Shown: in pieces, positions 3,867-28,763 of the stretch
How positions within the stretch are numbered: position 1 is the first letter of the stretch
Layout of the letters: every line of letters starts with the position of its first letter
Assembly: GCA_025454775.1 (NCBI GenBank)
Contig: JALONU010000019.1
Location: forward strand, 1-36,471
Origin: Bacteroidales bacterium
GTDB lineage: Bacteria > Bacteroidota > Bacteroidia > Bacteroidales > VadinHA17
Length of the DNA: 36,471 nt
Direction of reading: 5' to 3'
Position numbers and translations under genes: made by a program
The notes under the pieces: generated by a model
What the model was told of the DNA's origin: nothing
What the model saw: only the letters and a program-made list of their open reading frames with translations
Database searches by the model: none

Positions 3867-4727
3867 CTAACCAAGATATCCTTTAAGCAGGCGGCTCCTG
3901 GATGTATGCCTCAGCCTTCTTATTGCCTTTTCCTTTATCTGTCTCACTCTTTCCCTGGTAAGTCCGAATTTCTCTCCTATTTCCTCGAGTGTCATTTCCT
4001 GGCAGCCTATTCCGAAAAAGTAGCGTATTATGTCCCTCTCACGTTCGGTAAGCGTTGCAAGTGCCCTGTAGATCTCACGCGACAGAGACTCGTCCATCAG
4101 TAGCTTGTCGGCAACCGGTGAGTCTGAGTTTGTGAGTACATCGAGGAGGCTGTTGTCTTCTCCCTCAATGAAAGGTGCATCCACCGATACATGCCTTCCG
4201 GAGACCTTAAGCGTATCTGTTACTTTCTCCTTTGGAAGTTCCAGCACATCGGCGAGCTCCTCGGGCGATGGTGTACGCTCGTTCTCCTGTTCAAACTTTG
4301 AGAAGGCCTTGTTGATCTTATTAAGTGAACCAACCTGGTTCAGGGGAAGCCTCACAATCCTCGATTGCTCGGCAAGTGCCTGAAGTATCGACTGGCGGAT
4401 CCACCATACGGCATAGGAAATGAACTTGAATCCGCGTGTTTCGTCGAACTTCTCAGCGGCCTTGATAAGTCCAAGGTTGCCTTCATTGATAAGATCGGGA
4501 AGGCTCAGCCCCTGGTTCTGGTATTGTTTTGCAACGGAGACTACGAAGCGGAGGTTTGCTTTTGTAAGTTTTTCCAGGGCAGTCCTGTCACCCTTTTTTA
4601 TCCTTTGTGCAAGTTCGACTTCTTCTTCGACCGAAATCAACTCCTCTTTACCAATTTCCTGCAGGTATTTGTCCAATGATGCACTTTCCCTGTTGGTTAT
4701 GGATTTGGTAATCTTTAGCTGTCTCAT
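3867..4727 (-). CDS. rpoD: RNA polymerase primary sigma factor RpoD/SigA
   Basis: [47 protein letters not shown]...[57 protein letters not shown]...[19 protein letters not shown]: sigma-70 regions 1.2-4.2; short 286-aa Bacteroidota form. Confidence 0.97.
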
Positions 4728-24974: not shown

Positions 24975-26532
24975 ATGAAAACGGCAAATATCATTGCAGA
25001 TCAATTGTTTAAGGTTGGAGTCAGGCATGTCTACGGCATACCCGGCGGAGCTTCCATTCCATGGATCGAAGCTTTCAGGAACAAGGGCATTGACTTCGTA
25101 CTTGTTTCCAATGAAGCATCAGCAGGCGTAATGGCTGCAGTAACAGCAAGGCTCACAGGGGTGCCCGGAGTCTGCCATGCAACCTTCGGTCCGGGGGCAA
25201 CAAATATCAGTACGGGAACCGGCTGTGCCTTTCTGGACAGGGATCCTGTAATAGTCCTCACTTCCGAGATGAACGACGCCATGAAAGCAAGGACAGCCCA
25301 GATCTGTTACAAAAGCTACATTCAGGATCAGCCCTTCCAACGCCGCAGACTCGATAAGAAAAGCCTTGAGAATATGCAGGGAAGAGTATCCGGGTCCTGT
25401 TCACCTTGGACTTCCCGATGATATCGCTGGTAATGAGGCTGAACCGGGGAAAGACAATGACCCGGAACGTTTAAAAGTCAATCCTCCCAGAAGTGTTTCC
25501 GAAATAATTTCTGTCCTGTCACGGTCCGAGAAACCTGTCATTGCTGCCGGGCTGACCGCCAGCCGTCTCGGTGCCGGAAAGGCACTGAAGGAATTTCTTG
25601 AAAAATGCCCCGTACCGGTCGTAACAACCCCCATGGCCGGAGACATCCTGCCTCATGATCATCCATGCTTTGCGGGAGTTCTTTTCCATGTACTCAGCGA
25701 CAGGCTTAAGCCGCTATTCAATGAGTGTGATCTCGTGATAGGCCTTGGCTACGACCAGGTCGAATACAACTACGAAACGTGGATGCCCGGTGTTCCCCTT
25801 GTCCACCTTGACACAAAGGTCAGCGATCTCCCTGTAAAAAAGGATGTATACGGGTATACCGGATCTCCCGATGACTGGTTCACCCTGCTTGGAAAAATCA
25901 GTAACCCTGCTAACAGGAACAAGATCATCAGGGATATACGCAATGATATGGAAGCGGAATATGAGAGGCATGCTTCCCCTTTCGGACCGGTTACAGTCCT
26001 TAAGATACTCAGGGATCACCTTCCTCCGAATGCCCTGGTTACCGCAGATGTAGGATCACATCTCCATCTCCTCGGGCAATTCTGGAGGACCGGTGCCGGG
26101 GGAGAGCTGATCATGTCGAACGGCTGGTCGGGAATGGGTTTCGGCATCCCAGCTGCCTTAGCGGCCTCGATTCACAGGCCTGATTCAAGGACTGTCTGCG
26201 TCACAGGCGATGGAGGTTTCCTTATGACAGCGGGGGAAATTGCAGTGGCACGACGTCTTGGCCTGCCTGTGGTGATCATTGTTCTTTCTGACGGAGAGAT
26301 GAACCTGATAAAGCTTAAGCAATCGTGGAAGAAAGTCCCTGCCGACGGAACTTTCCTTTATGGTGGAGATCTCTTTGGCTCCGACGTGTTCCTGGGGATA
26401 AAGGTTATCAGGGCTGATAATGCGCAAAAAATGAAAAAGGCTGTAACGACAGCCCTTTCATTAAGTGAACCGGTGATAATCAATGCGGTGATTAATCCGG
26501 CTTGTTATGAACATCTTATTGTAAGACAGTAA
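24975..26532 (+). pseudogene. thiamine-pyrophosphate-dependent enzyme (acetolactate-synthase large-subunit-like), split by frameshift/deletion near 25325-25340
   Basis: ORF 24975..25421 carries the N-terminal PYR domain (GVRHVYGIPGGASIPWIEAFRNKGIDFVLVSNEASAGVMAAVTARLTGVPGVCHATFGPGATN). ORF 25366..26532 carries the middle and C-terminal PP domain (EEYPGPVHLGLPDD ... TADVGSHLHLLGQ ... SNGWSGMGFGIPAALAAS ... VTGDGGFLM). The second frame is open further upstream as SPSNAADSIRKALRICREEYPGPVH. Confidence 0.85.
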
Positions 26533-26603
26533 AATACAGGAACAGATTGTTCCGGGGACCTTCAGACTTCCAAAAGAAGGAAGTGTTCCGGCAGAGCCCG
26601 GAT

Positions 26604-27146
26604 TTATTTTCCTGATTTTGCGCTCTTCGCCGTTTTCTTTTCAGGTTTTTCAGGTTTTTCAGCCTTTTCGGTTTTCGCAGCCTTTGCAGGCTTAGCTTCC
26701 TTTACAGGTTTTTCTTCCTTCTTCGGCTTTTCAGCTTTCACCGGTTTGGCCTCTTTCTTTTCCGCGGCTTCTTTCTTTGTTTCCTTTACAGGTTTTTCAG
26801 CTTTTGCAGCTTTTTCTTCCTTATGCGGTTTGGTCTCCTTTACAGGTTTCTCCTTAGGCTGCTTTGTTTCCTTTGGCTCCTTAACTTCCGCCGTGTGCTT
26901 CACCTCCTTAACTTCAGGTGTGTGCTTCACTTCCTTAACTTCCTTAACTTCAGGGACAACCACAGTTTCAACCACTTCCTTCACGGGTTTCTTTTCCCTT
27001 TGCGGTTTCTTCTCAGCAGTTTCCTTCACCCTTGGGGTTTGCATCATTTTAAGAGCCGGCTTGCTTGCTTTTTTCCTGCGCCTTCTGACGCCATATGTTC
27101 CGAGGAATATCTTTCCCCTCCTTGTTTTCTTGTCACCTTTTCCCAT
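26604..27146 (-). CDS. 30S ribosomal protein THX-like protein with a ~150-aa Lys/Glu/Pro/Ala-rich tail
   Basis: N-terminus MGKGDKKTRRGKIFLGTYGVRRRRKK matches the short ribosomal THX family; the rest is low-complexity KEVKEVKHTPEVKEVKHTAEVKEPKETK...KPAKAAKTEKAEKPEKPEKKTAKSAKSGK. Confidence 0.8.
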   Translation of the reverse strand: MGKGDKKTRRGKIFLGTYGVRRRRKKASKPALKMMQTPRVKETAEKKPQREKKPVKEVVETVVVPEVKEVKEVKHTPEVKEVKHTAEVKEPKETKQPKEKPVKETKPHKEEKAAKAEKPVKETKKEAAEKKEAKPVKAEKPKKEEKPVKEAKPAKAAKTEKAEKPEKPEKKTAKSAKSGK

Positions 27147-27189
27147 GATATGATTCTTTATTTTGGTATAAGCTTTATGAAAGCGTCGG

Positions 27190-27222
27190 CAAAGTTAATA
27201 ATATTCTTTATTTTTAGTCAAA
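27190..27222 (-). promoter_or_regulatory. Bacteroidota promoter (TTTG-N21-TAACTTTG) for the THX-like gene
   Basis: + strand CAAAGTTA (27190-27197), 21-nt spacer, CAAA (27219-27222); the same -7 octamer as the rpoD promoter. Confidence 0.65.
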
Positions 27223-27264
27223 ATTTAAATTATCGTTCAACAGAACACTTATCCCCCTGAGAAA

Positions 27265-28044
27265 ATGCAGACACTAAACGATCTGAGACTGGCAGTCCTT
27301 ATTGATGCCGATAATATACCTTTCAGCAACGTTACCGGCATGCTGGAAGAGATTGCCAAATACGGTACACCGACATTCAAGAGGATCTATGGCGACTGGA
27401 CGAGGCCCACTATCTCCGGTTGGAAACAGGTACTCCTCGAGAATGCCATCACCCCGGTGCAGCAGTACAGCTATACAAAAGGGAAGAATTCAACTGACTC
27501 GGCAATGATCATAGATGCCATGGACATCCTGTACTCAGGGAAGGTGGACGGTTTTTGCATAGTATCGAGCGACAGCGATTTCACAAGGCTTGCCACAAGG
27601 CTCAGGGAGGCCGGGATGAAGGTTATCGGGATAGGTGAACGAAAAACACCCTCTCCCTTCATTGTAGCCTGCGATAAGTTCATCTATCTTGAAATTATCA
27701 ATGTCCCGGCAGCTGTCAGGGAGCCTGCTCCCCAGGCTGGAAAGAAGAGCAAGCCTTCCGCGCATAAGAAACCCGGTGCCGAAAATGAACAGCAGAACCA
27801 GATAAAAAAGGCAAAAAGACTCATCGCAGCTTCCATAACCGACCTTGCCGACGAGAACGGATGGGCATACCTGGGCGATGTCGGGAATCTTATCCTTAAA
27901 AAACAGCCCGACTTCGATCCCCGAAACTTCGGCTTTGCAAAACTGACCCCGCTCATACGGTCATTCGATTTTGAGATTGACGAGAGGGAGTCGGGGCAGA
28001 ATAACATCAGGCATATCTATATCAGGAACAGGAAGCAGGGGTGA
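27265..28044 (+). CDS. NYN (PIN-like nuclease fold) domain protein with C-terminal OST-HTH/LOTUS domain
   Basis: LRLAVLIDADNIPFSN...KRIYGDWTRP...NSTDSAMIIDAMDILYSGKVDGFCIVSSDSDFTRLATRLREAGMKVIGIGE (NYN acidic motifs); C-terminal LIAASITDLADENGWAYLGDVGNLILKKQPDFDPRNFGFAKLTPLIRSF (LOTUS). Confidence 0.9.
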   Translation: MQTLNDLRLAVLIDADNIPFSNVTGMLEEIAKYGTPTFKRIYGDWTRPTISGWKQVLLENAITPVQQYSYTKGKNSTDSAMIIDAMDILYSGKVDGFCIVSSDSDFTRLATRLREAGMKVIGIGERKTPSPFIVACDKFIYLEIINVPAAVREPAPQAGKKSKPSAHKKPGAENEQQNQIKKAKRLIAASITDLADENGWAYLGDVGNLILKKQPDFDPRNFGFAKLTPLIRSFDFEIDERESGQNNIRHIYIRNRKQG

Positions 28045-28088
28045 GTTGTGAGTGGTGAGTGATGAGTAGTGAGTGGTGAGTGGTGGGA
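28041..28088. repeat. 7-bp tandem array (GTGAGTG), six units plus partial
   Basis: GTGAGTT GTGAGTG GTGAGTG ATGAGTA GTGAGTG GTGAGTG GTGGG; begins over the stop codon of the NYN gene. Confidence 0.85.
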
Positions 28089-28230
28089 ATGAGAGAATAA
28101 AATATACTGTTTTGGATATGATAAAGAACATAAAATGAGGGTTTATTGTTAATATATCGGACATAATATTTGACGGATTGGAAAAAATTCATGACCTTTG
28201 ATCTGTATTTAAAAACTTAATTGTGAAATC

Positions 28231-28545
28231 ATGAACATTTATTGCGGAAGTCTTCATTTTAAAATGAAGGAAGAAGAACTCAAGGAACTGTTTGAAGAGT
28301 ATGGCGAAGTAACAACCGCCAAGATCATTTTTGACAAATACTCTGGTAAAAGTAAAGGATTTGGCTTCGTGGAGATGCCGAATGATGCAGAAGCAAAAAA
28401 AGCAATCCAGGAACTTAACGGAGCTGAAGTTCAGGGTAGGAACATCATTGTTAACGAATCAATTGAAAGACAGGAAAGAAAAAGAGAATTCAGGGGAGGG
28501 CACGACCGCAGAGGCGGCGACCGTCCTGACAGAAACAACAGATAG
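28231..28545 (+). CDS. RRM-domain RNA-binding protein
   Basis: RNP2-like MNIYCGSL and RNP1-like KGFGFVEM; Arg/Gly-rich C-tail REFRGGHDRRGGDRPDRNNR. Confidence 0.93.
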   Translation: MNIYCGSLHFKMKEEELKELFEEYGEVTTAKIIFDKYSGKSKGFGFVEMPNDAEAKKAIQELNGAEVQGRNIIVNESIERQERKREFRGGHDRRGGDRPDRNNR

Positions 28546-28565
28546 TTCAACAAATATCAATTGCT

Positions 28566-28763
28566 ATGAAAGGTACTGTTAAATGGTACGACAGAGTTAA
28601 AGGTTATGGATTCCTCCAGACCGAAGATAACAAAGATATCTTTGTCCACCGTTCAGGTCTTGAGGTAGCCCATACCCAGCTTGAAGCAGGCCAGGCTGTT
28701 GAATTCGAAGTCGAACAAAGAGAAAAAGGCCCCGTCGCTGTCAGAGTCAGAAAAGCCGAATAG
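28566..28763 (+). CDS. cold-shock domain protein
   Basis: MKGTVKWYDRVKGYGFLQTEDNKDIFVHRSGLE: CSD RNP1/RNP2 motifs (KGYGFL, IFVH). Confidence 0.95.
   Translation: MKGTVKWYDRVKGYGFLQTEDNKDIFVHRSGLEVAHTQLEAGQAVEFEVEQREKGPVAVRVRKAE

Follow-up and report, generated by a model that had tools for sequence, protein, structure and literature searches.

A bTHX gene with a long, lysine-rich C-terminal tail, predicted to be disordered, in a Bacteroidales genus

The THX locus, its core and its neighbours

The window, that is, the whole stretch of 36,471 nucleotides analysed here, carries on its minus strand an open reading frame that joins the core of the small ribosomal protein bTHX to a long low-complexity tail. 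The features of the locus are listed below in window positions, with the evidence for each in brackets.

26604..27146, minus strand: bTHX coding sequence with a long C-terminal tail, 180 aa (ORF, TIGR04560 and PF17070)
27069..27146, minus strand: THX core, residues 1–26, including the reported rRNA-contact residues K3, D5, R9 and R10 (HMM match, conservation, pN/pS 0.13)
26988..27068, minus strand: proximal tail, residues 27–53 (partly conserved in the genus alignment)
26604..26987, minus strand: distal tail, residues 54–180, a polyampholyte of variable length, predicted to be disordered (composition, AlphaFold2, repeats)
26877..26951, minus strand: EVKEVK / EVKEVKHTP(A) repeat tract with 9-bp and 27-bp units (TRF, CDS positions 196–270)
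27190..27197, minus strand: -7 element TAACTTTG of a Bacteroidota-type promoter (conserved in the genus; same octamer before rpoD)
27219..27221, minus strand: -33-type TTG, 21 nt from the -7 element (sequence; conserved less than the -7 element)
26533..26603, minus strand: stable hairpin in the gap where the THX and TPP-enzyme genes converge, a possible terminator with no T run (weak)
27265..28044, plus strand: divergent NYN-LOTUS gene (Pfam, synteny)
28231..28545 and 28566..28763, plus strand: RRM gene and cold-shock gene, following the NYN-LOTUS gene (Pfam, synteny)

The ORF starts with ATG (first residues MGKGDKKTRRGKIFLGTYGVRRRRKK) and runs as a single unbroken frame for 180 aa. An earlier note on this DNA had described a THX protein and a long tail within one ORF and had proposed searching the N-terminus against the THX family models. 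The search bears the description out: residues 1–26 match both models over their full length and above cut-off (TIGR04560 ribo_THX, 47.3 bits against a cut-off of 26; PF17070 Thx, 33 bits against 29.7), which excludes a failure of the THX models at this N-terminus. The same residues align gap-free to the THX chain of the Thermus thermophilus 30S structures. At 180 aa the protein exceeds the 27–45 aa usual for THX, a length that is typical of its genus; since the family models do not include length, THX membership stands.

In solved structures THX is a tiny peptide embedded in the head of the 30S subunit, and we found no bacteroidotal THX chain among those in the PDB. Its residues K3 and W14 contact h43 of 16S rRNA, D5 contacts h42, and R9 and R10 contact h41 (PMC11711686); in Thermus, uS9, uS13 and uS19 cluster with it (PMC3734280). 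All four of K3, D5, R9 and R10 are kept in the window protein, and position 14 has F in place of the W of Thermus THX. Across 213 THX orthologues neither D5 nor K12 varies, and nor does K3 in any of the 100 long-tailed ones. The core pN/pS of 0.13 indicates strong purifying selection (pS is near saturation and the values are relative only). No second, short THX lies over the cut-off elsewhere in the genome, this gene being its sole THX and one further match reaching 14.8 bits. The best reading of the sequence is that the gene product is the ordinary bTHX of the cell, a small protein with a predicted place in the 30S head.

The gene was also claimed to have its own promoter, with the same -7 octamer as rpoD, and this is upheld. 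TAACTTTG occurs again about 20 bp upstream of a gene for a 286-aa sigma-70 protein (rpoD; 3867–4727, minus strand) in which regions 1.2, 2, 3 and 4 are present. On its own the octamer is a weak signal, its count in the window being close to chance (3 against 1.05 expected, with 12 of 100 shuffles reaching 3). Within 100 bp upstream of THX in the genus, the exact octamer is present at 24 of 31 loci and the pattern TAnnTTTG at 30 of 31, and it is this conservation of the -7 element that makes the promoter call convincing. The promoter is of the housekeeping type.

Gene order around THX is kept in the genus, with the TPP-enzyme gene convergent on its 3' side and the NYN-LOTUS, RRM and cold-shock genes on its 5' side. 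The latter form a run of RNA-binding genes (27265–28763, plus strand), divergent to THX and likewise kept across the genus. The hairpin in the convergent gap has a folding energy of -23.4 kcal/mol (z -2.83). The window copy of the TPP-enzyme gene (24975–26532, plus strand) is split into two overlapping frames, 24975–25421 and 25366–26532; because relatives carry both halves in one frame with matching spacing, we attribute the split to a frameshift or sequencing error. Two antisense ORFs over THX (26746–27153 and 26823–27260, plus strand) were taken to arise incidentally from lysine and glutamate codons, which are rich in A and G.

Distribution, composition and evolution of the tail

The long tail is real, present throughout the genus and fast-evolving. 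THX orthologues were found in 31 of 36 genus genomes, the five without a match being 78–93% complete. All 30 complete orthologues are tailed (90–240 aa, a more than twofold variation) and have at least 64 tail residues; the 31st is truncated by a contig end. These genus-wide tails, together with the conserved neighbours, rule out an assembly artefact, which the earlier note had named as a possible undoing of its claim. Among named organisms, the closest relatives are MAGs of uncultured Bacteroidales.

For a comparison of lengths, THX proteins were sampled by rank, with identical sequences and THX-HNH fusions removed. Median length was 129 aa in the genus (n=30), 94.5 aa in the rest of the order (range 35–315 aa; n=108, 52 of them at least 100 aa long), 41 aa in the rest of the class (n=41, none reaching 100 aa) and 38.5 aa in the rest of the phylum (n=24, a single one reaching it). 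The order and class samples differ at P=7e-11 (Mann-Whitney, phylogeny ignored). Judged by these lengths, long tails are largely a trait of the order and universal in the complete genus orthologues, and a long tail is thus what THX normally has in this lineage, not a one-off fusion. The statement that THX proteins normally have a few dozen residues is accurate for other classes of the phylum; it fails for the genus studied here and for a large part of the order.

The family itself is patchily distributed. THX was found in 118 of 295 genomes of the order, many near-complete Bacteroidota genomes gave no TIGR04560 match, and a permissive PF17070 re-search of 14 THX-negative genomes returned nothing over the cut-off; from the count and the re-search it follows that losses of THX, or very divergent forms, exist. 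This contrasts with a 2012 survey which, in its main passages, places Thx in nearly all Bacteroidetes as well as in Thermales and some Gammaproteobacteria (PMC3353972), and in those passages tails go unmentioned. In the searchable literature we found neither a characterised near-identical long-tailed protein nor an account of bacteroidotal THX tails.

The whole tail (residues 27–180) is of low complexity, with K 31%, E 19%, A 12%, P 11% and V 11%. Positive residues make up 32% and negative residues 19% of it, close to the genus median of 20% acidic, giving a net charge of +0.12 per residue, and the charges are mixed more evenly than in any of 1000 shuffles. Of the basic residues, Lys makes up 97% in the tails of the genus, compared with 54% in the core. 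A net positive charge is seen in 30/30 genus tails and in 76/81 order tails of at least 30 aa (counts that ignore phylogeny), and many of the net-positive tails consist of differing repeats. What persists in the tail is the use of Lys over Arg and a net positive charge.

The exact sequence is held more loosely. The best-conserved piece is residues 41–53 (consensus KExKxKKPxKEKK, top-residue frequency 0.72, 95% occupancy), and pN/pS is 0.45 both for residues 27–53 and for the distal tail, again as relative values with pS near saturation. The internal repeats that had been pointed out are present: TRF resolves the window coding sequence into a 27-bp unit repeated 2.5 times and 9-bp units. Across orthologues the units span 9–66 bp and some arrays are nearly perfect (15 bp x7.6 at 97%; 66 bp x5.2 at 94%); as every unit is a multiple of three, tail length changes through in-frame gain and loss of repeats. 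We found no paralogues of the tail elsewhere in the genome. AlphaFold2, run with 26 orthologues, gave a tail without structure (mean pLDDT 53.7) and one short helix at residues 6–9; lacking rRNA, the model renders even the core poorly and is informative on disorder alone. The tail is accordingly predicted to be intrinsically disordered.

Tails and extensions on other ribosomal proteins

Tailed ribosomal proteins look general in this lineage, judging from bS16 and bL17. In the order bS16 is 172–257 aa long with a long A/E/K-rich tail, which is net negative at 16 of 20 loci (counted from residue 81, a stretch that may include folded parts), and the bL17 tail of the source genome is neutral and about 60 aa long. 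These tails resemble that of THX in being C-terminal and A/E/K-rich; they differ from it in being Ala-rich and mostly neutral or acidic, whereas in the THX tail Lys abounds and the net charge is positive. Since THX tails are positive and bS16 tails mostly negative, the sign of the charge follows the protein, beyond what genome composition alone would give.

Longer organellar THX proteins and histone-like extensions of ribosomal proteins in mosquitoes are already known, and the window protein differs from both. The Thermus bTHX (S31) matches the core, although its chain stops at about residue 27, where the window protein has 154 further residues. Plant bTHXm and bTHXc (PSRP4) also hold a THX core within a longer polypeptide; there the core starts at residue 45–66 in several listed chains and the extension is largely N-terminal, while that of the window protein is C-terminal, far longer and repetitive. 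In mosquitoes, RpS6 and RpL23a carry independently evolved, Lys-rich, low-complexity extensions described as H1-like (PMC11764897), a likeness of description on other, eukaryotic proteins.

Extensions of another kind occur in three genomes of the order (L167 in G142, L168 in G201 and L172 in G124), where one ORF of 270–275 aa joins the THX core to a C/H-containing domain, CxxC...DHxPQ...CxxCN. A weak, below-cut-off resemblance of the domain to HNH_5 (E 0.016) was seen in one of the two proteins tested. A fourth genome (G139) has the HNH-like domain without THX, and G201 has, besides its fusion, a separate THX of 49 aa (L135). These ORFs suggest that unrelated fusions are tolerated at the C-terminus of THX.

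Possible roles of the tail

We postulate a bTHX whose core sits in 16S rRNA and whose sequence-tolerant, weakly cationic tail modestly aids rRNA contacts or assembly, a reading to which we give a little better than an even chance. The core would dock, as in Thermus, where h41, h42 and h43 form a pocket of 16S rRNA in the 30S head, beside uS9, uS13 and uS19. The first 25 or so tail residues would run on along the rRNA, and the distal tail, a flexible polymer of weakly cationic character, would extend away from the head surface and touch rRNA or other RNA transiently, with no sequence specificity. Such contacts might modestly help 30S assembly or stability, with rRNA folding and packing assisted without specific recognition, and selection would act on the charge and flexibility of the tail and less on its exact sequence or length. 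Binding of the tail to rRNA is plausible from its composition; its affinity for RNA may be slight, because its net charge is low. That the tail has some function is marginally the likelier case: the constancy of charge sign in genus and order, opposite to that of the bS16 tails, speaks for one, and the loose sequence and length, together with the short-tailed THX proteins elsewhere in the phylum, speak against it.

A strong rival, with a substantial though less than even chance of being right, is that the tail is a near-neutral by-product, the basic C-terminus of THX merely tolerating K/E/A/P repeats expanded by slippage from A/G-rich codons, much as the lineage puts up with tails on further ribosomal proteins, and the tail having no role of its own. 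The in-frame repeats, some nearly perfect, the weak constraint on sequence and the length spread of 35–315 aa in the order speak for it; tails on bS16 and bL17, and the acceptance of an unrelated folded domain by THX in three genomes, do so as well. Less easily accommodated are the persistently positive net charge with bS16 of opposite sign, the retention of at least 64 tail residues in every complete genus orthologue, and a mixing of charges more even than in shuffles. A neutral tail would cleanly exemplify the growth of low-complexity sequence on essential machinery.

A bolder version of the functional reading, which we regard as unlikely, makes bTHX a platform on the 30S head: a disordered arm, kept by selection and tuned in its charge, would be displayed there as a new functional surface, with an HNH-like domain taking its place in rare genomes. 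If true, the ribosome would have gained a surface that captures RNA, serves in assembly or brings ribosomes into contact with each other.

The tail had also been called histone-H1-like and credited with a possible link between ribosome and nucleoid. H1 tails are rich in Lys, Ala and Pro and nearly devoid of acidic residues, and the comparison fails on composition because 19% of the window tail is acidic. Neither the window protein, in which only Thx was matched at E up to 10, nor the 26 orthologues matched the linker-histone, Hc1 or HC2 families (low-complexity bias limits this test), and genus tails contain no AT-hook or SPKK motifs. The name is therefore misleading for a well-mixed polyampholyte, and DNA compaction of the H1 kind is disfavoured. 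A bacterial parallel is offered by AlgP and PhaF of Pseudomonas, whose tails of KPAA repeats are reported DNA binders and, like that of THX, are disordered, repetitive and Lys/Ala/Pro-containing, the AlgP tail being of similar length at 154 aa (PMC9239181). The THX tail, by contrast, is Glu/Val-rich and evenly charge-mixed. Despite the resemblance, a DNA-binding tail of H1 or AlgP/PhaF type that holds ribosomes to the nucleoid is improbable, given the even mixing of acid with Lys, the low net charge, the motif-free genus tails and the lack of any histone-family match, and the proposed nucleoid link is weakly supported.

The least credible alternative, a free RNA-binding protein that is no longer ribosomal and co-operates with the NYN-LOTUS, RRM and cold-shock neighbours, draws on the kept RNA-binding neighbourhood and is very improbable, as those neighbours are divergent and have separate promoters, the core is strongly constrained at its rRNA-contact residues, the genome has no second THX for the ribosome, and Thx genes, according to the main passages of the 2012 survey, usually lie apart from other ribosomal genes anyway (PMC3353972).

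If much of this largely uncultured order does carry a charged, disordered THX arm of 50–200 residues, its ribosomes would have a surface unlike that of the model ribosomes, to which the mostly acidic bS16 tail would add a further alteration in Bacteroidales. The role of disordered ribosomal tails would then be testable by comparing related short- and long-tailed species.

Two tails stand apart from the rest. One orthologue (L044, genome G133) has, beyond its K-rich tail, about 95 further C-terminal residues that are not repetitive, and in another from outside the class (L214, genome G620), one of two THX matches in its genome, the tail ends in the AT-hook-like KKRGRPKKK.
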